This document shows positions 16,804 to 53,402 of a stretch of 64,000 nt of DNA, piece by piece. Numbering within the stretch: the stretch's first letter is position 1; the number at the start of each line of letters is the position of its first letter. The notes below the pieces were generated by a model. That model was given only the letters and a program-made list of their open reading frames with translations. It was not told the DNA's origin and searched no databases. A program made the translations under genes and the position numbers. The DNA lies in NCBI GenBank assembly GCA_014843695.1, contig CM026404.1, positions 51,640,122-51,704,121 of the forward strand, written 5' to 3'. The DNA is from Archivesica marissinica (lineage: Eukaryota > Mollusca > Bivalvia > Venerida > Vesicomyidae).

Positions 16804-16858
16804 CCTTCACTTCCTCCAGTTCGGGTATTTCGTATGTCTCCTGGGATTCCAGAGGTGC
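16804..16858 (-). CDS. SH2 adaptor exon: YEIPE motif
   Basis: A 55-bp exon starting in phase 0 and ending with one extra base (phase 1). Acceptor tttgtag, donor gtagtt. It encodes APLESQETYEIPELEEVK, the last Y-x-x-P motif before the linker and SH2 domain. The leftover G joins TT of the next exon to make a valine codon. Confidence 0.82.
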
Positions 16859-16905
16859 CTACAAAGACATGCAAACTTTTGATTGTTACACGTTATAACA
16901 CAAGT

Positions 16906-17130
16906 GGAAGTCATGATAGCGCAGTGGTAGCACGTTCACTTTAGGTGTGAATTGTGAGTTCGCGCCCAGCTGTAGCTGTTATGATTGTGCCCGTAAGCAT
17001 TTAAATTTCACAATGTCTCTTCTCTCTCCCTCGTGGCGGTGGATTACATCAGGAATGAGGTCTCAAAGAGTGATTCATATAGGTTGTAATAACTTGTTTC
17101 GCAATCGAGCTAAAATAAATTTGTATAAAT
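16906..17130 (+). mobile_element. SINE-A copy
   Basis: It matches the copy at 7538 from gaagtcatgatagcgcagtg through ctcgtggcggtggattacat to aaaataaatttgtata. A few substitutions lie in the tRNA-like head. It is inserted shortly above the acceptor of the exon at 16804. Confidence 0.83.
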
Positions 17131-17199
17131 ATTAGAACCCACTCAACATGCAGGTCTTAATCCTACTCCAACTGCATGCTCATAATGGAATACTCTCTC

Positions 17200-17430
17200 A
17201 ATTTTGGATCAGTGAAACCATCATAGAAAGGCATAATGGACTATTCCATCTATTTGGATCAGTGAATTCATACAAATGGCATAATGGACTATTCCATCTA
17301 TTTGGACCAGTGAATTCATGAAAATGGCATAATAAACTATTCCATCTATTTGGATCAGTGAATTCATAAAAATGGCATAATAAGACTATTCCATCTATTT
17401 CGTTCAGTGAACATAATGTAGAAAGGGGCA
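17200..17430. repeat. 48-bp tandem repeat, about 5 copies
   Basis: Units contain gcataatggactattccatc and tatttggatcagtgaattca. The 48-bp period keeps a minus-strand frame open, which is not a gene. Intronic. Confidence 0.9.
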
Positions 17431-17461
17431 TTTTGCAGAATTAAATTTCTTTTTAATGATA

Positions 17462-17900
17462 CAGTGTATATCACTGTTGATCAAGATCAGACGACAAAGT
17501 GTAGATCAAGATCAGATAACACAGTGTAGATTAATGCAGACCAAGATCAGATAACACAGTGTAGATCAATGCAGACCAAGATCAGATAACACAGTGTAGA
17601 TCAATGCAGACCAAGATCAGATAACACAGTGTAGATCCCAATCAGATAACACAGTGTAGATCCCAATCAGATAACACAGTGTAGATCCCAATCAGATGAC
17701 ACAGTGTAGATCCCAATCAGATGACACAGTGTAGATCCCAATCAGATGACACAGTGTAGATCCCAATCAGATAACACAGTGTAGATCCCAATCAGATAAC
17801 ACAGTGTAGATCCCAATCAGATGACACAGTGTAGATCCCAATCAGATGACACAGTGTAGATCAATGTAGACATATATCAGATGAAACATCATAGATCCCA
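17462..17900. repeat. 25-bp minisatellite
   Basis: About 16 units of agtgtagatcccaatcagat plus aacac/gacac; the first units carry longer spacers (agatcaatgcagaccaag). The unit resembles the inner arm of the TTAA MITEs (gtgtagatccagatgag), a possible origin. Confidence 0.92.
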
Positions 17901-18057
17901 ATCAGACTATTGAAAACTGTTCCCAAATCATATCATGCTGTGGCATAGAGGTTCGACTAGAATCAGCTCCAGTTGTGACAGACTACTATGGAGCCGACAA
18001 CCATTAATTCACTGTTATTTCTTACATGTACATATTTTCTACCAAATATTCTACTCC

Positions 18058-18472
18058 CATTCGTTGCAGGTGTGAAAGGTGCGGAGTTCACGCCCAGCTG
18101 TATCCATTACAATTGTGCCCCTAGTTAGAACATTTAAATTCCACACTGTCTTTTGGCTGTCCAATTAGGCAGTGGTTATCATGCTCGCTTCTCACCAATG
18201 CAATCCAGGTTCGATCCTCGGACCGGGAAGTATGTGACATAGTACACTGGTCGCCAGATCGGACAGGTAGGTTTTCTCTGGGTACTCCGGTTTCCTCCCA
18301 CACGAATGACCACAGCTACGCATTCATCCGCGCCAACAAGAGAGATTAATTTAAGTTGGTAAATCTCTCAGTCGTGGCGATGGATTCCATCAGTAATGAG
18401 GTCTCGAGAGTGGTTAAACTAATGTTGTAAGGACTTTATTTTGAAATAGAACTAAAATAAATTTGTATAAAC
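18058..18472 (+). mobile_element. SINE-A interrupted by a SINE-B
   Basis: A 5'-truncated SINE-A begins near ttgcaggtgtgaaaggtgcg and is broken near 18151. A SINE-B follows, and SINE-A resumes near 18364 at tctctcagtcgtggcgatgg, ending aaaataaatttgtataaac. The order shows SINE-B jumped into an existing SINE-A. Confidence 0.8.
18155..18363 (+). mobile_element. SINE-B nested in SINE-A
   Basis: The head is ggctgtccaattaggcagtg with B box ggttcgatcct. The strongly conserved core reads ggttttctctgggtactccg then gtttcctcccac, which resembles the central domain conserved across animal MetaSINE-type elements (inference). The tail is gagagattaatttaagttgg. Confidence 0.82.
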
Positions 18473-18490
18473 AAAATATAATACTGTTAC

Positions 18491-18640
18491 CTTCTTTTCA
18501 TACATTGTTCTGCCCACTTGAGGTTTAGCCGCTTGAGGTTTAGACGCTTGAGGTTTAGACGCTTGAGGTTTAGCCTCATTCGGTAATGGCATGGCACAGC
18601 CCCGTCTAAAGTTCATGTCATTTTTGTGTGATGACGATAC
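18491..18640 (-). CDS. SH2 adaptor exon: linker with KPQ repeat
   Basis: A 50-codon exon, phase 0-0, acceptor gattttag and donor gtaaca. It starts VSSSHKNDMNFRRG, then carries four tandem five-residue units (EAKPQ, ASKPQ, ASKPQ, AAKPQ) encoded by a 15-bp repeat, and ends VGRTMYEKK. No Y-x-x-P motif is present, although MYEKK is a possible minor site. The lysine/proline repeat may be length-polymorphic. Confidence 0.85.
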
Positions 18641-18866
18641 CTAAAATCAAGCAACATGAAGCTTACAATACAAAACAAGTTGCATAATGAAAATAAAACA
18701 AATGCCAGAAAGAAAATTATAACTAATTGGCTAGAATTTCATACAACTAGGATAACACAGGTATCTAATTGACCATTTGATTTCACTTATCCATTCTACT
18801 CAGCGAGGAAAAACATAATATGGATAGTAAACTATGGCAATAATGCACCTTTTTGTTATTTAATTT

Positions 18867-19110
18867 TAAGTTTATTTATTGCCGCTACCAGTTGCCCATC
18901 AGAACGACGGGCAGTTTACCGAACAACACTTTTCATGTGCAGGATCCAGAGGTTAACCAGTACATGGTGCACCAACCCTCGTAAGAAACTGCCAACTTTT
19001 TCAAATAAACAAATACGGCCTGAGTGGGGCTTGAACTAGTCACCATCAGTGATGATAGGTTACAGTGGTATATAAGTCAATGACCCTAACAACAACTCGA
19101 CCACGGAGGC
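18867..19110 (-). mobile_element. SINE-D (tRNA-derived)
   Basis: On the minus strand the head reads ctccgtggtcgag..., with a B-box-like gttcaagcccc. The 3' end (ttgccgctaccagttgccc on the plus strand) resembles the SINE-C tail. A related copy is at 20562. Confidence 0.65.
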
Positions 19111-19137
19111 GATCAATAATTCACCTCTTGATCAATC

Positions 19138-19382
19138 TTAACCCATTCAACACCAAGTAACTGACATGGACTGGTCCATGATATTCTTAGACCAATAAAT
19201 TAATAACAAAATTACATTTGGATCAGTTCATTTATCAAAATGGGTAATTTTTTTCCTAAAAATAGTTATATTACTTGAAAAAAGTGCAGATCCTGATGAG
19301 ACGGCTCGTCACGAGCCGGCTCATCTGGATCTACACTTTTTTGTAAGCCAATTTAGAGGTCTGTGGTGTTGAAAAGGGTTAA
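19138..19382 (-). mobile_element. TTAA MITE family 1, copy 2
   Basis: It has TTAA on both sides, starts CCCATTCAACACCA and ends with the complement of CCCTTTTCAACACCA, i.e. inverted relative to the copy at 14279. The central palindrome (gacggctcgtcacgagccgg) is kept. Confidence 0.85.
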
Positions 19383-19705
19383 CTGATTTTAAATTTTAGT
19401 GTATTCAATGATTTAACAATATCTACTGTCCTGGAGAGATAAAGAAAATCGCATGAAAATAATAGACAAGTCCACATAAAATACCGTAATTTAGGTGGGT
19501 CGTTTATGCCTATGATATATGATATACATGGATATCGGTCCTGACAACTGGGCTATATAAACTTACCTATCCAGGTAAATAATACGGTCAAATGCATAAG
19601 TTAACAAATATCAAGTTATCATTCGACACTAGTATATACAGGTACAAATTATGTTTATTTGTATTTTTCTGACATTTTATGCCAATTTTGATAAATCTGA
19701 TAATG
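19383..19705. other. AT-rich intronic sequence, nothing seen
   Basis: No exon, repeat array or transposon end can be supported here. Confidence 0.45.
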
Positions 19706-19924
19706 TTAACACTTAACCTGCCGAATAAATTTGACGGAATGTGCAAACAACATAGATCCAGATCAGCCACGGCACAATGCCATGTCTGATCAGGATCTAT
19801 GTTGTTTGCTATTCAGACAAGTGTTTTAACTCCACTATCCGAATAGCAAACAGCATAGAGCCAAATCAGGCTCTATGCTGTCTGCACAAGCGACTTCAGT
19901 TGTGATTGGCAGGTTACGGGTTAA
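19706..19924. mobile_element. TTAA MITE family 2, copy 3 (intact ends)
   Basis: TTAA both sides; termini cacttaacctgccgaat and caggttacggg. The interior has the catagatccagatcag / ctgatcaggatctatg inverted pair, then a second hairpin around catagagccaaatcaggctc. Confidence 0.75.
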
Positions 19925-20146
19925 TAAATACATCATGACGTGTACACATTTAGATGAATGGAAATTTGAAGAATGACAACATTACGAGCAGTGAGGGAAA
20001 ATTGCAAGCCAGGAACAAGCTACAAAATGTAATGTATAATCACAGAACAGAATATATAACCAACAAATTGACTTTATTTATATACGTAAACCATAACCTC
20101 ATACCGGTACACTCATTCATATGGTTGGATTTTATTACCTGTATCT

Positions 20147-20443
20147 TGTGTGTGCGTTTTACGTCTACTTATCGTCGCTACTGGTTGCCCATATGAGCGA
20201 CGCCTCCTGAAGAGATTAGTCATTTCAGATTTTTGGAGGATAGTACAATGATACATATAGAGACACATTCCAGAGTCCCATCTGGTTCTATTACGTGCAT
20301 GGTGTAAAGCACCGACACGAGACCTCGGTTTAAAGTCCCATCTGAAAGACTGTTAATTTTATTAGGGTCAGACGGGGGATCGAACCTGCGATCCCTGGAT
20401 TACCAGTCCAACGTGTTACTACTGGACTACATATCCGTCTGTA
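20147..20443 (-). mobile_element. SINE-C, full length
   Basis: On the minus strand it starts acagacggatatgtagtcca with a tRNA-Thr-like anticodon arm (ctggactggtaatccag form) and B box gttcgatcccc. The core has gactttaaaccgaggtct and gcacgtaaaagaacc-like motifs, and the tail is gcaaccagtagcgacgataa. Confidence 0.83.
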
Positions 20444-20561
20444 AAATAAACCACTATCAACAATAGCTTAAGCCCTAAAGCGACACTTAATTTGTGAAAA
20501 ATGTAATTTCCTAGTACATTGTATAATTGTTTTTCAAATAATAGTCGTTCATGTTATATTT

Positions 20562-20881
20562 ATATTTCCGGCTTTATGCCTGTATCAGCACCATTTTGGG
20601 CTATGTCGCCGGCGGCAGTTTACCTAACAACACCTTTCCTGGGCAGGCTCCAGCGGTTAACCAGTACTTGGGTGCACCAACGTCCGTAAGAAACTGCCAA
20701 CATTTTCATATAAATGAGACACGGTCTGAGCGGGGCTCGAACCCGTGACCATCAGTGATGATAGGTTACAGTGGTATACAAGTCAGCGACCTTAACCACT
20801 CGACCACGGAGGAAATCGATAATAAACAGATACGGCCTGAGAGGGGCTTGAACTAGTCACCATCAGTGATGATAGGTTAAT
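20562..20881 (-). mobile_element. SINE-D copy plus fragment
   Basis: The main copy runs to about 20813 and has the minus-strand head ctccgtggtcgagtggttaa and ggttcgagccccgct. A second head fragment (tacggcctgagaggggcttg) follows at about 20826-20881. Confidence 0.6.
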
Positions 20882-21050
20882 CGTTCAACTAATAAAAAAA
20901 TGTGGTATATGACGTTTGTTGACGCAACAAATTTTAATAAACAAGTTCTACATTAATGTGTGTATCATCAATAAAGATTTGCAATCAATGATCAGAGTGT
21001 GTTTTCTTACAAATTTACCATTATCGTCTCGCCCTTTGCACCTGTACATA

Positions 21051-21232
21051 ACCCGGGTTTGATCCTCGGACCAGAAAGTATGTGAGATGGTACGGTAGTC
21101 GCCAGGTCGGATATGTGGGTTTTCTCCGGGTACTCCGGTTTCCTCCCACACGAATGACTACATTTACGCTTTCATCTGCGCCAACGAGAGTGATTAATAT
21201 AAGTTGTTAGAACTTGCTTCGCAATCGTTGTT
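21051..21232 (+). mobile_element. SINE-B, 5' truncated
   Basis: It begins in the B box (gggtttgatcctcgg), has the core gtgggttttctccgggtact and the tail gagtgattaatataagttgt. Confidence 0.8.
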
Positions 21233-21664
21233 TGGTCGTGTTAACTATTTCGGAAATTCCTACTTTCACTTTTGCGAGATTGTAGATCGCATAAAACTTG
21301 TTTACTAATGAAAATTAATTATGTAAGGCAGAATGTGTAGTAGCAATACTAATTATATGTGAAAACATCCATTTTATTGCTATTTACAACGTAATGTCGC
21401 TTTAAATGTCATTCTTAATTAACTTTCATGTCGTAATTGAATGAATAACTCTTATCATATATTTGATTTTTTATTCGTATTAAAAATTATTATAATTATG
21501 TGCAAACTATGCTGACAAGCTTCTTTAATTAATTACGTGCAAGATACACTGACATGCTTCTGTGTGCGCTAAATTTGCAATGAGAGATTGTTCAGCTTTT
21601 TGTATTACCTCCCTTTGGTAGATTTCTTAATTATATATTGGTCCCTTTAGTTGGTGAGATCCCC

Positions 21665-21745
21665 GGTCTGACCCTAATACCTTTCAATTGGGACTTTAAA
21701 CTGTGCTCTCATGTCGGTGCTGTACACTGAGCACGTAAAAGAACC
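21665..21745 (+). mobile_element. SINE-C core fragment
   Basis: It carries ggtctgaccctaatacctt and gagcacgtaaaagaaccag, then switches abruptly to the dispersed segment that leads into the 22011 array. Confidence 0.6.
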
Positions 21746-22010
21746 AGTGTAGAAGTTTAATCAATTCCCTCATGTAAGAAGTTTGACAGATATAAGCTTT
21801 ATACATGCAAGGAGCAACAAAGACACGAAAGTCAGGACAAACATTGACGAATGGCGAGCTATATGTCTACAAATTCTACGAATATTAGCGCTAAGAATTA
21901 GTATAATAGTTAATCAGTTTAAAGCATACACACAAAATTTACCGGCAATTTATTTTGTGGAAGTCCAATTTTGTCAGGTTCCATTAGTAAATAATCCTCC
22001 TGTTCCTCTA
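21743..22010 (+). repeat. Dispersed segment X, copy leading into the array
   Basis: It matches 29416-29650 closely (for example gtaagaagtttgacagatat, then aagctttatacatgcaagg; ataatcctcctgttcctcta). The two copies are identical in order up to the first cctgccatgttatata unit; only this one continues into a long array. Confidence 0.8.
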
Positions 22011-25000
22011 CCTGCCATGTTATATAACGTAATGTTTATATGTAATGTTGTACCCTGCCATGTTATATAACATAATGTTTATATGTAATGTACCTGCCAT
22101 GTTATATAATGTAATGTTTATATGTAATGTTGTACCTACCATGTTATATAACGTAATGTTTATATGTAATGTTGTACCTGCCATGTTATATAACATAATG
22201 TTTATATGTAATGTTGTACCTACCATGTTATATAACGTAATGTTTATATGTAATGTTGTACCTGCCATGTTATATAACATGTTTATATGTAATGTACCTG
22301 CCATGTTATATAACATGTTTATATGTAATGTACCTGCCATGTTATATAATGTAATGTTTATATGTAATGTACCTGCCATGTTATATAATGTAATGTTTAT
22401 ATGTAATGTACCTGCCATGTTATATAATGTAATGTTTATATGTAATGTACCTGCCATGTTATATAATGTAATGTTTATATGTAATGTACCTGCCATGTTA
22501 TATAATGTAATGTTTATATGTAATGTACCTGCCATGTTATATAATGTAATGTTTATATGTAATGTTGTACCTGCCATGTTATATAATGTAATGTTTATAT
22601 GTAATGTACCTGCCATGTTATATAATGTAATGTTTATATGTAATGTACCTGCCATGTTATATAATGTAATGTTTATATGTAATGTACCTGCCATGTTATA
22701 TAATGTAATGTTTATATGTAATGTTGTACCTGCCATGTTATATAATGTAATGTTTATATGTAATGTACCTGCCATGTTATATAATGTAATGTTTATATGT
22801 AATGTACCTGCCATGTTATATAATGTAATGTTTATATGTAATGTACCTGCCATGTTATATAATGTAATGTTTATATGTAATGTTGTACCTGCCATGTTAT
22901 ATAATGTAATGTTTATATGTAATGTACCTGCCATGTTATATAATGTAATGTTTATATGTAATGTACCTGCCATGTTATATAATGTAATGTTTATATGTAA
23001 TGTACCTGCCATGTTATATAATGTAATGTTTATATGTAATGTACCTGCCATGTTATATAATGTACCTGCCATGTTATATAATGTAATGTTTATATGTAAT
23101 GTACCTGCCATGTTATATAATGTAATGTTTATATGTAATGTACCTGCCATGTTATATAATGTAATGTTTATATGTAATGTTGTACCTGCCATGTTATATA
23201 ATGTAATGTTTATATGTAATGTTGTACCTGCCATGTTATATAATGTAATGTTTATATGTAATGTTGTACCTGCCATGTTATATAATGTAATGTTTATATG
23301 TAATGTACCTGCCATGTTATATAATGTAATGTTTATATGTAATGTTGTACCTGCCATGTTATATAATGTAATGTTTATATGTAATGTTGTACCTGCCATG
23401 TTATATAACATGTTTATATGTAATGTACCTGCCATGTTATATAATGTAATGTTTATATGTAATGTACCTGCCATGTTATATAATGTAATGTTTATATGTA
23501 ATGTACCTGCCATGTTATATAATGTAATGTTTATATGTAATGTTGTACCTGCCATGTTATATAATGTAATGTTTATATGTAATGTTGTACCTGCCATGTT
23601 ATATAATGTAATGTTTATATGTAATGTACCTGCCATGTTATATTATGTAATGTTGTACCTGCCATGTTATATAATGTAATGTTTATATGTAATGTACCTG
23701 CCATGTTATATAATATAATGTTTATATGTAATGTACCTGCCATGTTATATAATGTAATGTTTATATGTAATGTACCTGCCATGTTATATAATGTAATGTT
23801 TATATGTAATGTTGTACCTGTCATGTTATATAACATAATGTTTATATGTAATGTACCTGCCATGTTATATAATGTAATGTTTATATGTAATGTACCTGCC
23901 ATGTTATATAATGTAATGTTTATATGTAATGTACCTGCCATGTTATATAATGTAATGTTTATATGTAATGTTGTACCTGCCATGTTATATAATGTAATGT
24001 TTATATGTAATGTTGTACCTGCCATGTTATATAATGTAATGTTTATATGTAATGTTGTACCTGCCATGTTATATAACGTAATGTTTATATGTAATGTTGT
24101 ACCTGCCATGTTATATAATGTAATGTTTATATGTAATGTACCTGCCATGTTATATAACGTAATGTTTATATGTAAGTACCTGCCATGTTATATAATGTAA
24201 TGTTTATATGTAATGTACCTGCCATGTTATATAATGTAATTTATATGTTTTTATGTAATGTACCTGCCATGTTATATAATGTAATGTTTATATGTAATGT
24301 TGTACCTGCCATGTTATATAATGTAATGTTTATATGTAATGTTGTACCTGCCATGTTATATAATATGTTTATATGTAATGTACCTGCCATGTTATATAAC
24401 ATAATGTTTATATGTAATGTACCTGCCATGTTATATAATGTAATGTTTATATGTAATGTACCTGCCATGTTATATAATGTAATGTTTATATGTAATGTTG
24501 TACCTGCCATGTTATATAATGTAATGTTTATATGTAATGTTGTACCTGCCATGTTATATAATGTAATGTTTATATGTAATGTACCTGCCATGTTATATAA
24601 TGTAATGTTTATATGTAATGTTGTACCTGCCATGTTATATAACATGTTTATATGTAATGTTTACCTGCCATGTTATATAATATGTTTATATGTAATGTAC
24701 CTGCCATGTTATATAATGTAATGTTTATATGTAATGTTGTACCTGCCATGTTATATAACGTAATGTTTATATGTAATGTACCTGCCATGTTATATAATGT
24801 AATGTTTATATGTAATGTACCTGCCATGTTATATAATGTAATGTTTATATGTAATGTAATGTACCTGCCATGTTATATAATGTAATGTTTATATGTAATG
24901 TTGTACCTGCCATGTTATATAATGTAATGTTTATATGTAATGTACCTGCCATGTTATATAATGTAATGTTTATATGTAATGTACCTGCCATGTTATATAA

Positions 25001-27158
25001 TGTAATGTTTATATGTAATGTTGTACCTGCCATGTTATATAACATGTTTATATGTAATGTACCTGCCATGTTATATAACGTAATGTTTATATGTAATGTA
25101 CCTGCCATGTTATATAATGTAATGTTTATATGTAATGTAATGTACCTGCCATGTTATATAATGTAATGTTTATATGTAATGTTGTACCTGCCATGTTATA
25201 TAATGTAATGTTTATATGTAATGTACCTGCCATGTTATATAATGTAATGTTTATATGTAATGTACCTGCCATGTTATATAATGTAATGTTTATATGTAAT
25301 GTACCTGCCATGTTATATAATGTAATGTTTATATGTAATGTACCTGCCATGTTATATAATGTAATGTTTATATGTAATGTTGTACCCTGCCATGTTATAT
25401 AACGTAATGTTTATATGTAATGTTGTACCTGCCATGTTATATAATGTAATGTTTATATGTAATGTACCTGCCATGTTATATAATGTAATGTTTATATGTA
25501 ATGTACCTGCCATGTTATATAACGTAATGTTTATATGTAATGTTGTACCTGTCATGTTATATAATGTAATGTTTATATGTAATGTTGTACCTGCCATGTT
25601 ATATAACGTAATGTTTATATGTAATGTACCTGCCATGTTATATAATGTAATGTTTATATGTAATGTACCTGCCATGTTATATAACGTAATGTTTATATGT
25701 AATGTTGTACTCTGCCATGTTATATAACGTAATGTTTATATGTAATGTACCTGCCATGTTATATAATGTAATGTTTATATGTAATGTTGTTCCTGCCATG
25801 TTATATAACGTAATGTTTATATGTAATGTACCTGCCATGTTATATAATGTAATGTTTATATGTAATGTACCTGCCATGTTATATAATGTAATGTTTATAT
25901 GTAATGTTGTACCTGCCATGTTATATAACGTAATGTTTATATATAATGTACCCTGCCATGTTATACAGCATAACGTGATGTTTATATATAATGATGTACC
26001 TGCCATGTTATATAACATAACGTGATGTTTACATATGATGATGTACCTGCCATGTTATATAGCATAATGTGATGTTTATATGTAATAATGTACCTGCCAT
26101 GTTATATAGCATAGCATGATGTTTACATATAATGATGTACCTGCCATGTTATATAGCATAACGTAATGTTTATATGTAATAATGTACCTGCCATGTTATA
26201 TAGCATAGCATGATGTTTACATATAATGATGTACCTGCCATGTTATATAGCATAACGTGATGTTTACATATAATGATGTACCTGCCATGTTATATAGCAT
26301 AACGTAATGTTTATATGTAATGATGTACCTGCCATGTTATATAGCATAGCATGATGTTTACATATAATGATGTACCTGCCATGTTATATAGCATAACGTA
26401 ATGATTATATGTAATAATGTACCTGCCATGTTATATAGCATAGCATGATGTTTACATATAATGATGTACCTGCCATGTTATATAGCATAACGTAATGTTT
26501 ACATATAATGATGTACCTGTCATGTTATATAGCATAACGTAATGTTTACATATAATGATGTACCTGTCATGTTATATAGCATAACGTAATGTTTACATAT
26601 AATGATGTACCTGTCATGTTATATAGCATAATGTAATGTTTACATATAATGATGTACCTGTCATGTTATATAGCATAACGTAATGTTTACATATAATGAT
26701 GTACCTGCCATGTTATATAGCATAACGTAATGTTTACATATAATGTTGTACCCTGCCATGTTATATAATGTAATGTTTATATGTAATGTACCTGCCATGT
26801 TATATAATGTAATGTTTATATGTAATGTACCTGCCATGTTATATAATGTAATGTTTATATGTAATGTACCTGCCATGTTATATAATGTAATGTTTATATG
26901 TTTTGTTTATATGTAATGTACCTGCCATGTTATATAATGTAATGTTTATATGCAATGTTGTACCTGCCATGTTATATAATGTAATGTTTATATGTAATGT
27001 ACCTGCCATGTTATATAATGTAATGTTTATATGTAATGTACCTGCAATGTTATATAATGTAATGTTTATATGTAATGTACCTGCCATGTTATATAACATA
27101 ACATAATGGTTATATGTAATGTACCTGCCATGTTATATAGCATAACGTGATGTTTATA
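22011..27158. repeat. 39/42-bp AT-rich minisatellite, about 5.1 kb
   Basis: Units read cctgccatgttatataatgt then aatgtttatatgtaatgta, with a ttg insertion making the 42-bp form. Between about 25950 and 26750 the units change to a longer variant (atagcataacgtgatgttta, catataatgatgta). Periods divisible by three leave long ORFs on both strands; these are artefacts. Confidence 0.98.
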
Positions 27159-27641: not shown

Positions 27642-27660
27642 GAAATGATTATATCATTAC

Positions 27661-27693
27661 CTCTGTATCAGGAACTTCATATGTTTCCTCCCC
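27661..27693 (-). CDS. SH2 adaptor microexon: YEVPD motif
   Basis: A 33-bp microexon (11 codons, GEETYEVPDTE), phase 0-0, acceptor acttacag and donor gtaatg. Its size makes it easy to miss, but both neighbours join in the same frame, and it contributes nothing but one tyrosine motif. A SINE ends about 20 bp below its donor, and the acceptor side runs into the 64-bp tandem array, so this is an unusually crowded exon. Confidence 0.78.
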
Positions 27694-29055: not shown

Positions 29056-29079
29056 GTAATTTGTTATTGTAATGACATA

Positions 29080-29415: not shown

Positions 29416-29680
29416 ACCAGTGTAAAAGTTTAATTAATTCCCTCATGTAAGAAGTTTGACAGATATAAGCTTTATACATGCAAGGTGCAACACAGACATG
29501 AAAGTCAGGACCAACATTGACGAATTGCGAGCTATATGTCTAGCTTATATGTATAAGCTTGAAGCGTACACAAACATTTTACCAGCAATTTATTTTGTGG
29601 AAGTCCAATATTGTTAGGTTCCATTTGTAAATAATCCTCCTGTTCCTCTACCTGCCATGTTATATAACGTAAGTTCATAT
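29416..29680 (+). repeat. Dispersed segment X, single-unit copy
   Basis: It matches 21743-22040. It ends with one cctgccatgttatataacgt unit and then goes directly into SINE-C core sequence instead of an array. Confidence 0.8.
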
Positions 29681-30176: not shown

Positions 30177-30251
30177 CTGTAGTGGCACGGTTGGCTGGTT
30201 GCCAGAATGGGACGAGTCTGTGTCATCTGGTATTTCATAGATCTCCTCAAC
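30177..30251 (-). CDS. SH2 adaptor exon: YEIPD motif
   Basis: A 25-codon exon, phase 0-0, acceptor cttgtgcag and donor gtaaca. It reads VEEIYEIPDDTDSS followed by HSGNQPTVPLQ. YEIP with acidic residues before and after the tyrosine is a typical Src/Syk-family substrate context and a Y-x-x-P docking site (family knowledge). Confidence 0.85.
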
Positions 30252-34892: not shown

Positions 34893-35000
34893 CTGTACAG
34901 GTTTTGACTTAGGCTGCTGGTTTCTCTTTGACTTCGGTACACTTCGGGGTACAGCAGGTGGCACATCTCCCTCTGCTGGCAGCTGATAAGTTGGCAAGTC
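34893..35000 (-). CDS. SH2 adaptor exon: YQLP motif, basic tail
   Basis: A 36-codon exon, phase 0-0, acceptor atttcag, donor cag/gttaaa (a weaker donor; an alternative two codons earlier, cct/gtacag, would also keep the frame). It starts DLPTYQLPAEGDVPP, then PRSVPKSKRNQQPKSK. The YQLP motif replaces YEDP here but keeps the proline at +3. The exon sits between the 18-bp array (31490-34560) and the 31-bp array (35280-41600). Confidence 0.8.
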
Positions 35001-42367: not shown

Positions 42368-42496
42368 ATTTAATGCTGCGTTTGTCTTTCTCGGCATCGC
42401 TGACACAGGCGGAGGTGCGGGCCTTCCCTGACCACCATGCCTTCCCTGACCACCAGTCAGTGTTGATATAGTCTGGTCTGGGTCTTCATATTTCTC
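42368..42496 (-). CDS. SH2 adaptor exon: YEDPD module with GGQGR repeat
   Basis: A 43-codon exon, phase 0-0, acceptor attcacag and donor gtatgt. It starts EKYEDPDQTISTLT, then GGQGRH and GGQGRP in tandem (a 15-bp internal duplication), then PAPPPVSAMPRKTN. The order tyrosine motif, proline-rich stretch, basic end is the same as in the exons on either side. Confidence 0.87.
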
Positions 42497-43503: not shown

Positions 43504-43644
43504 TTCCGGTTCTTGAGTTATAGACCGTTTTCTGATTGATGATGGTACGGAAGACATGGGAGGTGGTGGGGGTCTTCTCTGGCCAGTCCGTACAGGTATT
43601 TCTATCTTAGTTGGCACATGCAGGTTTGGATCCTCATAATTCTC
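43504..43644 (-). CDS. SH2 adaptor exon: YEDPN module with polyproline
   Basis: A 47-codon exon, phase 0-0, acceptor tctttcag and donor gtaagt. It starts ENYEDPNLHVPTK, followed by TGQRRPPPPPMSS and a basic SIRKRSITQEPE end. The RRPPPPP run is a good candidate SH3-binding site. The upstream intron boundary is a strong consensus acceptor. Confidence 0.9.
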
Positions 43645-43725
43645 CTGAAAGAGAAAACAATAAATTGTAATATACTTCTGTAAAATCTGATAACAATCAA
43701 TCAACAATGATTTTTCGTTAATTTA

Positions 43726-44056: not shown

Positions 44057-44131
44057 TTAATATGTTAATTTAACATAGTGACCTATTTCCGTATGGACTA
44101 AATGGGATAAGCTCGGTAGAGGAAAAAGACA

Positions 44132-44373
44132 TTAACTCATTCAACACCAAGTAACTCACATGGACTGGTCCATGATATTCATAAACCAATAAATGAATCA
44201 GAAAATCACATTTGGACAAGTTCATTTATCAAAATGGGTAATTATGTCTAAAAATAGTCATATCACTGGCAAAAAGTGCAGATCCTGATGAGACGGCTCG
44301 TCACGAGCCGGCTCATCTGGATCTACACTTTTTTGTAAGCCAATTTAGAGGTCTGTGGTGTTGAAAGGGTTAA
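44132..44373 (-). mobile_element. TTAA MITE family 1, copy 3
   Basis: TTAA ends; termini ctcattcaacacca and, inverted, ccctttcaacacca; the palindromic centre gacggctcgtcacgagccgg is kept. Confidence 0.85.
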
Positions 44374-44553
44374 AGAGATACTAAGATTGGTCATATTTGG
44401 ACCATTAATTTCATTATGTTGTGAATTTGGCATGGTACAACGGAACGTTGTTTGCTTATCGCAACCTCATGTCCATTATATGTTGATCATAAATGTAATA
44501 ATACACTCAATGAAATAGATACAACGTTTATTTGCAACCACTATACAGATGTC

Positions 44554-44710
44554 ATGTGAGATGGTACGGTGGTCGCCAGATCGGAAAGGTGGGTTTTCTC
44601 TGGGTACTCCGGTTTCCTCCCACATGAATGACGCTGTCATCCGCGCCAACGAGAGTGATTAATATAAGTTGTTAAAGCTTGTTTCGCAATCGTTGTAAGA
44701 TAAATAAAGT
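44554..44710 (+). mobile_element. SINE-B, 5' truncated
   Basis: It starts at atgtgagatggtacggtggt, has the core gtgggttttctctgggtact and the tail gagtgattaatataagttgt then an A-rich end. Confidence 0.8.
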
Positions 44711-44868
44711 AGAAAAAAAAAATTAAATTGTTTTTCTTAAGGAATAAAAGCAACCCGTGTTGCATGTATTGGGATATACATATAGGATCTTATACGAATG
44801 GCGATTTCATACCATATTTTATGAAACGAGTTTTGGAATTTGCTATTAAGAGCGTCCTTTTGGCTAGT

Positions 44869-45110
44869 TTAACCCTTTCAACACCACAGACCTCTCAATA
44901 GGCTTATAAAAAGTGTAGATCCAGATGAGCCGGCTCGTGACGAGCCATCTCATCAGGATCTGCACTTGTTGCCAGTAATATTATTATTTTTAGACAAAAA
45001 TTACCTATTTTGATAAATGAACTGGTCCAAATGTAATTTCCTTATTAATTTATTGGTCTAAAAATATCATGCACCAGTCCATGTGAGTTACTTGGTGTTG
45101 AATGGGTTAA
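44869..45110 (+). mobile_element. TTAA MITE family 1, copy 4
   Basis: TTAA ends, same orientation as the copy at 14279; termini ccctttcaacacca and, inverted, cccattcaacacca; centre gatgagccggctcgtgacga. Confidence 0.86.
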
Positions 45111-45627
45111 TAGCAAAACTCCATCAAACTTCATAAATATGAAATCACCACGAGTGTAAGTTCTTTGTATAACATTACCATATCTCGTTTTAATAATATT
45201 TTTGCACAAAATCACGTTCCTACTTTCAATTTGGTGCCAAGAGACAGTGCAAATTGTTAAGAAGTGACTAAATTGTGATGACGTCACAATGCAAATAAGC
45301 GTTATATTTACATTTTAAACAACATTATAACTACTTCACGACTTCTTTTAAATCGCCATTTGTCTTATCGTTTTGTAACAATTCAAATATAAATATGAAT
45401 AATTTAAAGCTTAATTTACAAATAATACGCTTTATTCTCTCAACCAATCAAAAATTCTTCCAGGTTGTATTACACATGTGTACATATAAGAAAATATGTG
45501 ATGGCTGTATGAATCTGAATACAAGGAAAGTTATGTGATAAAATACATTTGTGCTGTTTAATGTGTGTGGGGTCCGAAGATGTCTCCACATACACGTTAA
45601 ACAGTATACATGTATTCACCTCAGCAG
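45111..45627. other. Intronic sequence with one hairpin
   Basis: No exon is seen. At about 45553-45609, ctgtttaatgtgtgtgg pairs with ccacatacacgttaaacag across a 20-base loop, possibly a relic of a small inverted-repeat element. Confidence 0.45.
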
Positions 45628-46202
45628 TTTTAAAGCAGCATTACATCGTATGAAATAAAAGATATTTGAAAAATTCAAATTTTACGTATGGGTAGCAATG
45701 CTGCTACACATTCTAACATTATACTTCGTATGTTTATGTTCATTTGGTAAACAGTGTTTTTTGCGATAAAACAAACTGGAAACCGAAAGCAGAACTTTCT
45801 GAGTCAATCGGTCACGCACTTGTTTACAACCGGTATGCATCGTCCCCATTTGTCCCACGTTGTCTTTGTAATTAAATTACTTGATATGTTGATTCATACC
45901 TCTGTTAGCTAAGTCTTTTAGGAAATTTCTACATCCACAGGGTTCGACATTAGAGGAAGAATAGATAGATAGTATTTCATGTTCAAAATATATACGTTGT
46001 TTTCTACACTCTGTTGTTTCACGCATGCGCGCTGTGCGTGTTTACATTTCGTGTGTTGATAAACAAATTCGTGTATACGACGGTTTAAATTTATTGGAAT
46101 TGTATCGTTTCTGAGCGACTATTTCGATTTTTGTAAACACACACACATTAGTATTTATATTTTACCCAAAACATCCTTTATTACGATGTAATGCTGCTTT
46201 AA
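45628..46202 (+). mobile_element. MITE with TTTAAAGCAGCATTACATC ends, copy 3
   Basis: About 575 bp; left end ttttaaagcagcattacatc, right end inverted acgatgtaatgctgctttaa. The interior matches the element at 58427-59034 in opposite orientation (e.g. gtgggacaaatgggg region, gcgcatgcgtgaaac). Confidence 0.82.
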
Positions 46203-46355
46203 TATAGATTTAATGATTTCGTATTTATGCACTCACAAAGTCAAGCGCTGTATTTTAATCATTTTGAAATTCAAGCGCTGTATTTGTTAGCTCTTCAATG
46301 GGACTCTGGAAATCCCTGATATACAGTAATACAATAAAGAAGAGCTTCACTGTAC

Positions 46356-46490
46356 CTCTGGCTGGGCAGGTGGTTCACGATGGCTGGTTGGGATAGGTGA
46401 TACAGGAACAGGTGGTTGTTTTCTCTTACCAATGGGTATACGTGGTGCCATTGATGTAACTGCACTGTCTGGATCCTCATAGTCTTCATC
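46356..46490 (-). CDS. SH2 adaptor exon: YEDPD module
   Basis: A 45-codon exon, phase 0-0, acceptor gctccag and donor gtacag. It starts DEDYEDPDSAVTSM, then has a basic patch (RIPIGKRKQPP) and a proline-rich end (SHREPPAQPE). The module order (tyrosine motif, basic patch, prolines) repeats that of the adjacent exons, which points to descent by exon duplication. Confidence 0.87.
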
Positions 46491-46665
46491 CTGGAGCTGA
46501 TGTACAAAATTATCATCCTGTGCGAAAATATCTCATGGCTACTAACAAGGTATTTAACACAATGGCACATACTTAATGGCTGCTAAACAAAATAATCCCA
46601 AAATTACACTACCTGGATGCTCCCATAAGCATGCATGTGAATCTGCAAGTACAATGTATGACATA

Positions 46666-46861
46666 GGCTGTCCGATTAGCGCAGTGGTTAGTGCGCTCGC
46701 TTCTCACAAATGCAACCCGGTTTCGATCCTCGGACCGGGAAGAATGTAAGATGGTACGGTGGTCGCCAGATCGGACAGGTGGGTTTTCTCCGGGTACCTC
46801 CCACATGAATGACCACATATACGCTTTCATCCGCGCCAACGAGAGTGATTAATATAAGTTG
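46666..46861 (+). mobile_element. SINE-B copy
   Basis: Head ggctgtccgattagcgcagt, B box gtttcgatcct, core gtgggttttctccgggtacc with the following bases deleted, tail gagtgattaatataagttgt. It lies in the 460-bp intron between two YEDP exons. Confidence 0.82.
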
Positions 46862-46952
46862 TCAATATGGTGAACATTTGCGAAATTCATCGACGAGGAT
46901 GGTGTTCTGAAAAAGTAACAACAATAATTGAAATTAGAACATGTTTACATAC

Positions 46953-47084
46953 TTCCGGCTCTGGTGCGGGTGGCAAAGCTCTCTGGCCGATTGCTGCTGC
47001 CTTACTTCTTCCAGTTGGTAGTTGGGGCAAGGGACCTCCATGAAAGTGCTGCACTTTTATGGTTGCATCGGGGTCCTCATAGTT
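46953..47084 (-). CDS. SH2 adaptor exon: YEDPD module
   Basis: A 44-codon exon, phase 0-0, acceptor ttttcag and donor gtatgt. It starts NYEDPDATIKVQHF and ends in a basic/proline-rich tail (GQRALPPAPEPE). The YEDPD tyrosine is at residue 2, as in its neighbours. The proline tail is a plausible SH3 ligand (inference). It follows the 53244-53402 exon in frame across an intron that holds the 39-bp and 20-bp arrays. Confidence 0.87.
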
Positions 47085-47164
47085 CTGAAAACATTCAATA
47101 GTTTTATAATATCTACAACAATTCCACAGAAATTTCCTTAAGCTACCAAGCTACCACTCATTTC

Positions 47165-48160
47165 TGCAAGCTATTTGCCATCCATTTCATCAGTCTGCCA
47201 TCCATTTCTTCAATCTGCCATCCATTTCCACAATCTGCCATCCATTTCTTCAATCTGCCATCCATTTTCTCAATCTGCCATCCATTTCTTCAATCTGCCA
47301 TCCACTTCCTCAATCTGCCATCCATTTCTTCAATCTGCCAACCATTTCCACAATCTACCAACCATTTCCACAATCTACCAACAATCTACCAATCATTTCC
47401 ACAATCTACCAATCATTTCCACAATCTACCAACCATTTCCACAATCTACCAACCATTTTCTCAATCTACCAACCATTTCCATAATCTACCAACCATTTTC
47501 TCAATCTACCAACCATTTTCACAATCTACCAACCATTTTCACAATCTACCAACCATTTTCACAAACTACCAACCATTTACACAATCTACCAACCATTTCC
47601 ACAATCTGCCAACCATTTCCACAATATACCAACCATTTCCACAATCTGCCATCCATTTCCTCAATCTGCCAACCATTTCCACAATTTACCAACCATTTCC
47701 ACAATTTACCAACCATTTCCACAATTTACCAACCATTTCCACCATTTCCACAATTTACCAACCATTTCCACAATCTGCCATCCATTTCCACAATCTACCA
47801 ACCATTTCCACAATCTGCCATCCATTTCCACAATCTGCCATCCATTTCCACAATTTACCATCCATTTCCACAATCTACCAACCATTTCCACAATATGCTA
47901 TCCATTTCCACAATTTACCAACCATTTCCACAATCTACCAACCATTTCCACAATCTACCAACCATTTCCACAATCTGCCATCCATTTCCACAATTTACCA
48001 ACCATTTCCACAATTTACCATCCATTTCCACAATCTACCATCCATTTCCACAATTTACCAACCATTTCCACAATTTGCCAACCATTTCCACAATTTACCA
48101 ACCATTTCCACAATTTACCAACCATTTCCACAATTTACCAACCATTTCTTTAACCTACTA
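47165..48160. repeat. 20-bp minisatellite
   Basis: About 50 units of ccatttccacaatctaccaa with ctgcc/ttacc variants. Twenty is not a multiple of three, so three units form a 60-bp frame cycle, and the 333-codon ORF here is an artefact. It starts about 80 bp upstream of the acceptor of the exon at 46953. Confidence 0.97.
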
Positions 48161-48225
48161 TTTGCTGCTACCCTGACCAGCACACAAGTTCCATTGCAAT
48201 GCCCTTGTTTCAAGTGATGATCCGC

Positions 48226-48466
48226 TTAGCTCTTTCAACACCAAGTAACTGACATGGACTGGTCCATGATATTCTTAGACCAATAAATGAATAAGAAAAT
48301 TACATTCGGACCAGTTCATTTATCAAGATGGGTAATTTTGTCTAAAATTAGTAATACTACTTGCAAAAAGTGCAGATCCTGATGAGACAGCTCGTCACGA
48401 GCCGGCTCATCTGGATCTACACTTTTTGTAAGCCTATATAGCGGTCTGTGGTGTTGAAAGGGTTAA
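48226..48466 (-). mobile_element. TTAA MITE family 1, copy 5
   Basis: Left target mutated to TTAG with ctctttcaacacca; right end ggtgttgaaagggttaa. The centre gacagctcgtcacgagccgg is kept. Confidence 0.8.
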
Positions 48467-48744
48467 AGGTTTGTCTCTTGTGTTGAATGTCGTAATTTAC
48501 GGGAATAAATACTTAAATAAAAAAACAATCTAAAAGAATGAAGTAAGAAACAGGGAGGGGTTATTGTCCAATTACTCAATCAAGCCATTACATGACAAGA
48601 AATCAAAGTAGAGGGCAGGTGTGCAGGGGCGATTGGTGGACAGAGTGTGTTGTATGGAATTATAATTTAAAACTTTTATTTTGGTCATACAAACAGACCA
48701 CTGATAAAATTCCTCAGATTGATTCATAAGAACGTTTTTTTAAA

Positions 48745-51700
48745 GGGTTTTCCATTTAACCTAGCAACCTAGATGTAGATCCCAGTAACCCCATTTAACC
48801 TAGCAACCTAGCTGTAGATCCCAGTAACCCCATTTCACCTAGCAACCTAGATGTAGATCCCAGTAACCCCATTTCACCTAGCAACCTAGATGTAGATCCC
48901 AGTAACCCCATTTAACCTAGCAACCTAGATGTAGATCCCAGTAACCCCATTTAACCTAGCAACCTAGATGTAGATCCCAGTAACCCCATTTAACCTAGCA
49001 ACCTAGATGTAGATCCCAGTAACCCCATTTAACCTAGCAACCTAGATGTAGATCCCAGTAACCCCATTTAACCTAGCAACCTAGATGTAGATCCCAGTAA
49101 CCCCATTTAACCTAGCAACCTAGATGTAGATCCCAGTAACCCCATTTAACCTAGCAACCTAGATGTAGATCCCAGTAACCCCATTTAACCTAGCAACCTA
49201 GATGTAGATCCCAGTAACCCCATTTAACCTAGCAACCTAGATGTAGATCCCAGTAACCCCATTTAACCTAGCAACCTAGATGTAGATCCCAGTAACCCCA
49301 TTTAACCTAGCAACCTAGATGTAGATCCCAGTAACCCCATTTAACCTAGCAACCTAGATGTAGATCCCAGTAACCCCATTTAACCTAGCAACCTAGATGT
49401 AGATCCCAGTAACCCCATTTAACCTAGCAACCTAGATGTAGATCCCAGTAACCCCATTTAACCTAGCAACCTAGATGTAGATCCCAGTAACCCCATTTAA
49501 CCTAGCAACCTAGATGTAGATCCCAGTAACCCCATTTAACCTAGCAACCTAGATGTAGATCCCAGTAACCCCATTTAACCTAGCAACTGTAGATCCCAGT
49601 AACCCCATTTAACCTAGCAACTGTAGATCCCAGTAACCCCATTTAACCTAGCAACCTAGATGTAGATCCCAGTAACCCCATTTAACCTAGCAACCTAGAT
49701 GTAGATCCCAGTAACCCCATTTAACCTAGCAACCTAGATGTAGATCCCAGTAACCCCATTTAACCTAGCAACCTAGATGTAGATCCCAGTAACCCCATTT
49801 AACCTAGCACCTAGATGTAGATCCCAGTAACCCATTATAGCACCTAGATGTAGATCCCAGTAACCCCATTAACCTAGCAACCTAGATGTAGATCCCAGTA
49901 ACCCCATTTAACCTAGCAACTAGATGTAGATCCAGTAACCCATTTAACTAGCAACCTAGATGTAGATCCCAGTAACCCCATTTAACCTAGCAACCTAGAT
50001 GTAGATCCCAGTAACCCCATTTAACCTAGCAACCTAGATGTAGATCCCAGTAACCCCATTTAACCTAGCAACCTAGATGTAGATCCCAGTAACCCCATTT
50101 AACCTAGCAACCTAGATGTAGATCCCAGTAACCCCATTTAACCTAGCAACCTAGATGTAGATCCCAGTAACCCCATTTAACCTAGCAACCTAGATGTAGA
50201 TCCCAGTAACCCCATTTAACCTAGCAACCTAGATCCCAGTAACCCCATTTAACCTAGCAACCTAGATGTAGATCCCAGTAACCCCATTTAACCTAGCAAC
50301 CTAGATGTAGATCCCAGTAACCCCATTTAACCTAGCAACCTAGATGTAGATCCCAGTAACCCCATTTAACCTAGCAACCTAGATGTAGATCCCAGTAACC
50401 CCATTTAACCTAGCAACCTAGATGTAGATCCCAGTAACCCCATTTAACCTAGCAACCTAGATGTAGATCCCAGTAACCCCATTTAACCTAGCAACCTAGA
50501 TGTAGATCCCAGTAACCCCATTTAACCTAGCAACCTAGATGTAGATCCCAGTAACCCCATTTAACCTAGCAACTGTAGATCCCAGTAACCCCATTTAACC
50601 TAGCAACTGTAGATCCCAGTAACCCCATTTAACCTAGCAACCTAGATGTAGATCCCAGTAACCCCATTTAACCTAGCAACCTAGATGTAGATCCCAGTAA
50701 CCCCATTTAACCTAGCAACCTAGATGTAGATCCCAGTAACCCCATTTAACCTAGCAACCTAGATGTAGATCCCAGTAACCCCATTTAACCTAGCAACCTA
50801 GATGTAGATCCCAGTAACCCCATTTAACCTAGCAACCTAGATGTAGATCCCAGTAACCCCATTTAACCTAGCAACCTAGATGTAGATCCCAGTAACCCCA
50901 TTTAACCTAGCAACCTAGATGTAGATCCCAGTAACCCCATTTAACCTAGCAACCTAGATGTAGATCTGGTAACCCCATTTAACCTAGCAACTGTAGATCC
51001 CAGTAACCCCATTTAACCTAGCAACTGTAGATCCCAGTAACCCCATTTAACCTAGCAACCTAGATGTAGATCCCAGTAACCCCATTTAACCTAGCAACCT
51101 AGATGTAGATCCCAGTAACCCCATTTAACCTAGCAACCTAGATGTAGATCCCAGTAACCCCATTTAACCTAGCAACCTAGATGTAGATCCCAGTAACCCC
51201 ATTTAACCTAGCAACCTAGATGTAGATCCCAGTAACCCCATTTAACCTAGCAACCTAGATGTAGATCCCAGTAACCCTTTAACCTAGCAACCTAGATCCC
51301 AGTAACCCCATTTAACCTAGCAACCTAGATGTAGATCCCAGTAACCCCATTTAACCTAGCAACCTAGATGTAGATCCCAGTAACCCCATTTAACCTAGCA
51401 ACCTAGATGTAGATCCCAGTAACCCCATTTAACCTAGCAACCTAGATCCCAGTAACCCCATTTAACCTAGCAACCTAGATGTAGATCCCAGTAACCCCAT
51501 TTAACCTAGCAACCTAGATGTAGATCCCAGTAACCCCATTTAACCTAGCAACCTAGATGTAGATCCCAGTAACCCCATTTAACCTAGCAACCTAGATGTA
51601 GATCCCAGTAACCCCATTTAACCTAGCAACCTAGATGTAGATCCCAGTAACCCCATTTAACCTAGCAACCTAGATGTAGATCCCAGTAACCCCATTTAAC

Positions 51701-52160
51701 CTAGCAACCTAGATGTAGATCCCAGTAACCCCATTTAACCTAGCAACCTAGATGTAGATCCCAGTAACCCCATTTAACCTAGCAACCTAGATGTAGATCC
51801 CAGTAAACCCATTTAACCTAGCAACCTAGATGTAGATCCCAGTAACCCCATTTAACCTAGCAACCTAGATGTAGATCCCAGTAACCCCATTTAACCTAGC
51901 AACCTAGATGTAGATCCCAGTAACCCCATTTAACCTAGCAACCTAGATGTAGATCCCAGTAACCCCATTTAACCTAGCAACCTAGATGTAGATCCCAGTA
52001 ACCCCATTTAACCTAGCAACCTAGATGTAGATCCCAGTAACCCCATTTAACCTAGCAACCTATGTAGATCCCAGTAACCCCATTTAACCTAGCAACCTAG
52101 ATGTAGATCCCAGTAACCCCATTTAACCTAGCAACCTAGATGTAGATCCCAGTAACCCCA
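48745..52160. repeat. 39-bp minisatellite, highly homogeneous, 3.4 kb
   Basis: About 87 units of atttaacctagcaacctaga, tgtagatcccagtaacccc. Most are identical; variants are mainly short deletions (loss of cctagatg or gatgta, e.g. at 49585, 50575, 50985). A short noisy stretch at about 49805-49950 has scattered single-base losses. Confidence 0.98.
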
Positions 52161-52233
52161 TTTGAACAAACCTGGTAGATATTGCTAAAAGGAGGCTACT
52201 GACCTAGTCTGGTTCATGAGAGGAAGTTTGTTT

Positions 52234-52511
52234 ACAGACGGATCTGTATTCCAGTGGTAACAGGCTGGACTGGTAATCCAGGGATCACAGGTTCAATCCC
52301 CCCGTCTGACCCTAATAAAATTAACAGTCTTTCAGATGGAACATTAAACCGATGTCTTGTGTCGGTGCTTTACACCATGCAGGTAAAAGAACCAGAGGAG
52401 ACTCTGGAATGGGTCTCTGTCTGTATCATTGCACTATCCTCCAAAAATCTAAAATGACTAATCATATGGGCAACCGGTAGCGACGATAAATAAACGTAAA
52501 ACACACACACA
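52234..52511 (+). mobile_element. SINE-C with 10-bp target duplication
   Basis: Head acagacggatctgtattcca, B box gttcaatcccc, core gaacattaaaccgatgtctt, tail gcaaccggtagcgacgataa and (AC)n. Flanked on both sides by aagtttgttt, a clear target-site duplication; a small internal deletion removes the ctcttcaggaggcgtcgct part. Confidence 0.88.
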
Positions 52512-52655
52512 AGTTTGTTTAATAGGTTTCCTTTTAACTTTATCTAGTTGTCAAAACATTTGACCCCAGTGATCCCATTTGAACCAATCTTGCAGCATGC
52601 TATTCACAAAACTTGACATAATTCCTGGGGGAGAAGCCGCTTTAAAGGTTTCCCC

Positions 52656-52896
52656 TTAACCCTTTCAACACCACAGACCTCTAAATAGGCTTACAAAAAG
52701 TGTAGATCCAGATAAGCCGGCTCGTAACGAGCCGTCTCATCAGGATCTGCACTTTTTGCCAGTGATATGACTATTTTTAGACATAATTACCCATTTTGAT
52801 AAATGAACTTGTCCAAATGTGATTTTCTGATTCATTTATTGGTTTATGAATATCATGGACCAGTCCATGTGAGTTACTTGGTGTTGAATGGGTTAA
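52656..52896 (+). mobile_element. TTAA MITE family 1, copy 6
   Basis: TTAA ends; ccctttcaacacca and, inverted, cccattcaacacca. Very similar to the copy at 14279, including tttattggtttatgaatatc. Confidence 0.87.
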
Positions 52897-53243
52897 GTTG
52901 ACCGAGTGACCTAATTCTGATTATTGCGAAATTGAGAAAACAGATCGGAAGGTGAAGTCAAAATTAGATTTTCAAAATGGCCACCATGCCCACTATTTTG
53001 GATATCAGATCGGAACGATATTATCTAAGTTTGATCTAGTTGGCACCAAATTTTACATAGGTTATTCGGATCCAGAGAAGATGGTGTTTGAGGAAATTGT
53101 GGACATATGCATGAACGTGTACACCGGATAACTAGTATACATAAATGGTTGAATCAATTAATCTATATTTGATACTGGTAATTAATCAATCAATCTAAAT
53201 CTGAGTGGATAAATTGATCATATCAATCTATCAATTAACTGAC
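52897..53243. other. Intronic sequence, no gene seen
   Basis: It includes a stretch near 52960 resembling 8600-8670 (dispersed repeat). No exon is visible between here and the YEDP exon at 53244. Confidence 0.45.
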
Positions 53244-53402
53244 CTCATCTGGACTATCATCATATGTGCTAAGCACTGGTGCTCGGCCTCGTATGTCTTG
53301 GACCGGTGCCGGTACTCGGCCTCGTATATCTTGGACCAGTGCCGGTGGTCGGCCTCTCACTGCAGGAATGTCAACATCCTGACCATCAGGGTCTTCATAA
53401 AC
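53244..53402 (-). CDS. SH2 adaptor exon: YEDPD module, most 5' exon seen
   Basis: A 53-codon exon, phase 0 at both ends; acceptor ttgcag at 53403-53408, donor gtcagt just below 53244. It opens with VYEDPDGQDVDIP, giving a YEDP docking tyrosine at residue 2. Then come three imperfect 11-residue repeats beginning RGRPPALVQDI, RGRVPAPVQDI and RGRAPVLSTYD, encoded by a 33-bp internal duplication. A second acidic tyrosine motif (TYDDSPDE) closes the exon. It is the first of five consecutive exons that start with Y-E-D-P. The next upstream exon was not found; the GATGAT array and the 1-kb gap lie on that side. Confidence 0.85.

Follow-up and report, generated by a model that had tools for sequence, protein, structure and literature searches.

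A probable bivalve SLP-76/BLNK-type adaptor gene with docking tyrosines largely in separate symmetric exons

The minus strand of a 64,000-bp stretch of the Archivesica marissinica genome (hereafter the window) probably carries most of a bivalve adaptor gene of the SLP-76/BLNK type, in which most docking tyrosines have an exon to themselves, one whose duplication or skipping leaves the protein unbroken. In the window, 17 exons join into one chain of 1722 bases and 574 residues with nine YxxP and two YLxM sites and, at its C-terminal end, an incomplete SH2 domain closest to that of BLNK. We consider this gene a real and well-supported new variant of an adaptor already known, and its modular design is testable. 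The new part consists of the even spacing of the sites and, probably, of their exon-by-exon packaging, the vertebrate side having been compared at the level of proteins. All gene features are on the minus strand and are given in window numbering.

Exons of the tyrosine array

Nine tyrosine exons had been marked in an original prediction made from this sequence. Each of them is preceded by AG and followed by GT, and all share a single open frame on the minus strand, as proposed. Eight are in phase 0-0, while the ninth (16858-16804) has 55 bases and is 0-1, in agreement with the claim that all but the last are symmetric. The first five also open, as described, with one to three residues (V, N, DED, EN, and EK) ahead of YEDP[D/N]. 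They are YEDP exon 1 (53244-53402; VYEDPD, with internal RGRxP repeats), exon 2 (46953-47084; NYEDPD), exon 3 (46356-46490; DEDYEDPD), exon 4 (43504-43644; ENYEDPN), and exon 5 (42368-42496; EKYEDPD). A proline-rich or basic end had been claimed for every YEDP exon, which is loose: the ends are acidic (DE or PE) in four of the five, and the remaining exon closes with ALN. The YQLP exon (34893-35000), the YEIP exon (30177-30251), and the YEVP exon of 11 residues (27661-27693) are also 0-0.

Three further 0-0 exons, overlooked in the prediction, have been found by a tblastn search of eight homologues against the window. Two of these, the YLQM exon (29583-29651) and the YLLM exon (21943-22011), are copies of each other, and the third is a lysine/proline-rich exon beginning AMPLPNEAKPQ (18491-18640). 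Eleven 0-0 exons thus stand in succession, ten of them with one docking-type tyrosine motif each (YEDP five times, YQLP, YEIP, YEVP, and YLxM twice). Downstream of this run lie the 0-1 exon with its YEIP site (16804-16858), proline-rich exons, and the SH2 domain.

The five C-terminal exons have been read from the sequence or recognised by motif, and all except the linker exon are also matched by homologues in tblastn. They comprise a 1-1 exon with VPQKNKK (15590-15519), a 1-1 proline-rich exon with RPGRGLPPPP (14171-14106), a 1-0 linker exon (7456-7362), and two 0-0 exons that match Pfam SH2, exon a with WYHG (5584-5504) and exon b with YLIRKSS (2778-2626). A further candidate exon near 6385 has been left out of the chain, since its phase, as judged by eye, does not fit the frame. 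The joined protein had been given as 528 residues, a figure superseded by the 574 residues found in the window; the count of at least nine Y-x-x-P sites stands, with the two YLxM sites added to it.

The chain is open at both ends. The last SH2 exon would fall before base 1, leaving 78 residues of an incomplete domain, and upstream of 53402 no N-terminal or SAM exon has been recognised within the window. An assembly gap of 1000 N is located at 56805-57804, upstream of the first array exon, and may hide exons.

The distances between the first docking tyrosines are 53, 46, 44, 47, 45, and 36 residues. In the YEDP exons the exon joint lies one to three residues ahead of the tyrosine, and in exons 2-5 one or two of the acidic residues at positions -5 to -1 are encoded by the exon before. 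Because the joint is so close to the tyrosine, the acidic end of one exon would add to the context in which a kinase recognises the tyrosine of the next. A module that pairs an SH2 site with an SH3 site in each exon has been rejected, since only 3 of 12 exons (Y2, Y3, and Y4) contain a strict class I or II SH3 motif, as do 19-42% of the shuffles of those exons. The RxxK motif bound by GADS/Grb2 SH3 domains is absent from all 12 exons between 53402 and 16804, scanned singly, in a scan that did not extend to the N-terminal region or to the linker exons downstream of 16804.

The family of the gene and its known relatives

The in-window SH2 part matches the Pfam SH2 model with 36.4 bits (cut-off 21). 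In a sequence search of the PDB it comes closest to human BLNK (E 4e-12, 49.3 bits), followed by PLCgamma2 (1.2e-8, 38.3 bits). With a profile built from 11 mollusc SH2 domains, BLNK scores 104.1 bits and the next protein 68.1 bits among the best 60 of 210 PDB rows; no SLP-76 chain is found among these best 60 rows. The protein search gave 48 matches, of which the named ones are molluscan. The best is the Mercenaria mercenaria ‘lymphocyte cytosolic protein 2-like’ protein (E 5.6e-92), and matched proteins of several bivalves bear the names LCP2-like or BLNK-like. A search with the SH2 region returned four proteins, all already in the set of 48. The family has a SAM domain at its N-terminus, or in BLNK a short basic stretch; SAM is precomputed in many of the relatives among the protein matches, the Mercenaria protein (P0001) being without it. 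Acidic YExP-type tyrosine sites are present N-terminal to a proline-rich region, as in the SLP-76/BLNK family.

The family assignment is further supported by an SH2 tree of 28 rows, comprising molluscan, frog BLNK, carp LCP2a, and lamprey domains together with four PLCgamma2/SHP2 domains. The split of the former from PLCgamma2/SHP2 has a support of 98/94, in a tree that carries a long-branch warning. The window sequence groups with Mercenaria and one other relative (87/81, not starred). The original prediction of an invertebrate SLP-76/BLNK relative is therefore borne out by the Mercenaria LCP2-like match, the best SH2 match to BLNK, and the tree, and both the tree and the PDB searches place the SH2 inside this family. 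In the same tree, the SH2 of P0044, one of three proteins of Ostrea edulis LOC125658706 (P0043, P0044, and P0045), groups with vertebrate BLNK/LCP2 and not with other molluscs (95/85), which suggests, at the level of sequence, that this locus is a second molluscan paralogue.

Another SH2 adaptor family, for example one related to SH2D6 or Crk/Cas, with the YxxP array as a Cas-type substrate domain, has been considered as an explanation and is very unlikely. One abalone relative (P0036) is indeed named ‘SH2 domain-containing protein 6-like’, and the many evenly spaced YxxP sites resemble those of p130Cas, whose substrate domain works in a similar way, as a tunable array of docking sites for SH2 domains. 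However, p130Cas has an N-terminal SH3 domain, a C-terminal FAT-like domain, and no SH2, whereas the in-window chain carries an SH2 at its C-terminal end without an SH3. Together with the closeness of this SH2 to BLNK and the SAM domain of many relatives, these differences in domains argue against membership of the Cas group, and assignment to another SH2 family is disfavoured.

The likeness to vertebrate SLP-76 (LCP2) and BLNK (SLP-65) consists of a C-terminal SH2 of the same clade, YEDP/YEVP-type sites, and a proline-rich linker. The motifs themselves recur in vertebrates, with YEDPD and YEVPEN in frog BLNK and YEDPN in carp LCP2a. The contrast drawn in the prediction with the “few” phosphotyrosines of vertebrates was overdrawn, as there are 6-7 YxxP sites in seven frog BLNK sequences, although carp LCP2a has 3 and the lamprey sequence 2. 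The difference from frog BLNK lies in the arrangement, the frog sites forming two tight groups with 9-14 residues between sites inside a group, while the first sites in the window are evenly spaced.

Among invertebrates, amphioxus bbslp76 is described, in the accessible part of its paper, as an SLP-76 with SAM, a proline-rich region, SH2, and a DYEPPP site, and it differs in having a WW domain (PMC5431462). The accessible main text of that paper does not contain the word ‘exon’ and reports no one-exon-one-tyrosine layout (PMC5431462). The LCP2-like and BLNK-like proteins of bivalves and gastropods (Mercenaria, Mytilus, Pecten, Magallana, Haliotis, and others) are the same protein as the one in the window, that of Mercenaria being collinear with it. 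They are known as automatic annotations, and their number of YxxP sites differs by species and isoform. In line with the original prediction, no description of this exon layout has been found in the literature searched, which covered molluscan SLP-76/BLNK, YxxP sites in connection with exons and alternative splicing, and the evolution of the family, subscription papers being largely outside the search.

Origin, conservation and cassette differences of the array

The evidence for exon duplication is clearest in the YLxM pair, which is a duplicate at the DNA level. The two copies share a 301-column stretch at 81.7% identity, with 65 of 69 exon bases identical and an ungapped downstream intron identical at 153 of 166 bases. 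They are found in two separate introns, flanking the YEVP exon, and all four base differences between the exon copies change the residue. Therefore, exon duplication does occur in this gene, though its signal does not extend to all exons. Among the YEDP exons, the tails outside the motif are alike in exons 3-4 and 4-5 (1 and 0 of 500 shuffles score as high). They show a weak likeness in pairs 2-4, 3-5, and 2-3 (17, 22, and 28 of 500), and the tail of exon 1 has no detectable likeness to those of exons 2-5 (100, 151, 180, and 336 of 500). Descent of all five YEDP exons from one duplicated ancestor has been rejected, as the tail of exon 1 is unlike the others. The module comparison gives no duplication signal among exons 6-9. 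Because this signal is missing for YEDP exon 1 and exons 6-9, a convergent gain of short motifs is possible there. The predicted growth of the array by exon duplication is thus supported in part, plainly in the YLxM pair and through protein likeness in YEDP exons 3-4 and 4-5, with no such signal in exon 1 and exons 6-9.

The exons match homologous proteins in order, both in tblastn and in module comparison. The Mercenaria module of like number is the best match for window modules 1, 2, 4, 5, 6, and 7. The z scores of YEDP exons 1, 2, 4, and 5 against their counterparts are 10.7, 17.0, 8.6, and 7.5, and the YQLP exon matches a YEMP module (z 5.1), the first YEIP exon a YEIP module (z 2.9), and the YLLM exon the Mercenaria YLDI site (z 7.8). 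The EETYEVPDTE of the YEVP exon is identical in relative P0002, and the final YEIP exon matches relatives P0002 and P0003. In a global alignment with Mercenaria, both Y and P are retained at 8 of the 9 YxxP sites and 18 of 22 key residues are kept, with the YLLM site retained and the YLQM site not; elsewhere in the aligned linker the figure is 204 of 381 positions. The SH2 part is identical at 63 of 78 positions. The same array is present in Mercenaria and other bivalves, so it is not special to Archivesica marissinica. The tyrosine array is old, being collinear in Mercenaria.

Predicted isoforms of mussels hold or lose whole tyrosine cassettes. The 13 Mytilus edulis models are predicted proteins, representatives of 90% clusters with names up to isoform X49. 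All 13 differ chiefly by blocks, in a comparison with 15 columns that do not align cleanly. By the presence or absence of six cassettes they fall into 12 patterns, and each model has 5-7 YxxP sites. The cassettes are QDTYEDPD... (41 residues), QEEFYEDPD... (31 residues), LEYEVPEE...DDYMTM (25 residues), QPVYEETN (9-12 residues), QQVYDETM (9 residues), and RRKDKYKY (8 residues). The second and third are partly independent of the first, and five of the eight combinations of these three largest blocks are present. The same 73-residue pair of YEDP blocks is missing in one of three M. galloprovincialis models and in one of two M. californianus models. The Potamilus and Patella pairs differ by one block of 30 and one of 62 residues, respectively, and the Potamilus alignment also has 52 mismatched columns. 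Beyond molluscs, one member of a sea star BLNK pair lacks a 38-residue segment according to the accessible text of its source (PMC11593052). The claim that exons can be skipped without a change of frame is thus upheld between predicted isoforms of relatives, at the level of models.

Several observations weigh against a conserved and modular adaptor. The SAM domain is not visible in the window, as the N-terminal exons would lie past base 64000, and SH3-type motifs in the array exons are no commoner than chance. Window module 3 fits Mercenaria module 4 (z 5.8) slightly better than module 3 (z 4.9), and in Mercenaria the YLQM site aligns to V or a gap and the ninth YxxP site to a gap. Against P0003, which has two extra modules and a looser order, modules 1, 3, and 5 match best off the diagonal; there is scarcely any collinearity with relative P0004, and the key residues retained number 17 of 22 in P0003 and 10 of 22 in the partial protein P0002. 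The isoforms are predicted models, and the exon chain of the present species has been read from the genome alone. The M. edulis models are distinct partly by construction, because they are cluster representatives, and two M. trossulus models show no tyrosine-cassette difference at all.

Such points lend an appreciable, though lesser, likelihood to an ordinary multi-exon scaffold, that is, a disordered linker in an intron-rich gene with motifs that arose by single point mutations and isoforms that are mostly splicing noise or model artefacts. It would account for the unlikeness of YEDP exon 1 and exons 6-9 to other exons outside the motif, and it is in keeping with the 6-7 YxxP sites of frog BLNK and the predicted nature of the isoforms. 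It does not sit well with the DNA-level YLxM duplicate, the likeness of YEDP exons 3-4 and 4-5 beyond shuffles, the loss of the same cassette pair in models of two further Mytilus species, and the better retention of motif residues than of the remaining linker in Mercenaria. We therefore prefer a gene with duplicable and skippable tyrosine exons.

Splice-site minisatellites and a possible docking scaffold

Tandem arrays occupy 36,824 of the 63,000 non-N bases of the window (58.5%) and are found in most introns. Two of the minisatellites are made from splice junctions of the adaptor gene. The first, at 22009-27139, has a 39-bp unit with the 3' splice site of the YLLM exon and contains 98 exact copies of the acceptor TTATATAACATGGCAG/GTA. 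The second (2805-5521) starts inside SH2 exon a and is made of copies of the 3' end of that exon together with its 5' splice site; between 5511 and 4027 the donor TTAGTTTG/GTAAG occurs in 20 exact copies, one of which is the real site. Such ‘mirage’ arrays are known from the amphioxus Adh3 and globin genes, where the accessible part of the source reports that splicing is left undisturbed (PMC3087553).

A decaying or mis-assembled copy, broken by minisatellites and decoy splice sites, is very unlikely. The high share of tandem arrays, the splice-site copies adjoining two exons, the 1000-N gap, and the residue-changing nature of all four YLxM differences would fit such a copy, but the 17 exons have intact splice sites and one open frame, the SH2 part is well conserved in Mercenaria, and the amphioxus genes with comparable arrays splice normally, as far as the accessible source text goes (PMC3087553).

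Other repeats are present in the window. A predicted tRNA-Thr (60311-60383) has been rejected as a gene, since it stands at the head of an interspersed repeat found elsewhere in the window. The copies of this repeat (60311-60383, 61708-61418, and 20444-20144) are about 89-91% identical, and it is probably a tRNA-derived short interspersed nuclear element. Another interspersed repeat of ~243 bp (52898-52656, 45110-44865, and 14521-14279) appears to have been recently active, as two copies are 98.4% identical. A Pfam search of two long open reading frames in the window, both inside minisatellites, gave no match.

The tyrosines of SLP-76 and BLNK are phosphorylated by kinases and then bind SH2 proteins, as stated in the accessible part of the amphioxus study (PMC5431462). 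By homology, a kinase of the Syk, Tec, or Src type would phosphorylate the tyrosines of the bivalve array. The YE[D/E]P sites may then attract SH2 domains of the Vav/Nck/Tec type, and the YEVP/YEIP and YLxM sites those of the PLCgamma, Crk, or PI3K type. How many sites a molecule carries, and of which kind, would depend on cassette splicing and occasional exon duplication. The acidic exon ends could provide any joined YEDP exon with an acidic lead, so that its site stays kinase-ready.

In its strongest form, the proposal is that bivalve SLP-76/BLNK is a combinatorial phosphotyrosine scaffold of interchangeable cassette exons. Splicing would yield dozens of molecules with a varied number and order of Vav/Nck-, PLCgamma-, and PI3K-type sites, and the splice-site minisatellites next to some of the cassettes, with up to 98 exact acceptor copies, would tune or diversify exon inclusion between individuals. 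We regard this full proposal as unlikely; the strong reading, in which a regulated combinatorial scaffold would serve immunity, is possible.

In vertebrates, antigen-receptor signalling is nucleated by SLP-76 and BLNK, whose set of tyrosines is fixed. A homologue from animals that lack lymphocytes, with its sites in separate symmetric exons that undergo duplication and, in predicted isoforms, are spliced in or out, offers a natural series for relating the number and kind of docking sites to signalling strength, and the bivalve adaptor may give a view of the role of this family prior to adaptive immunity.

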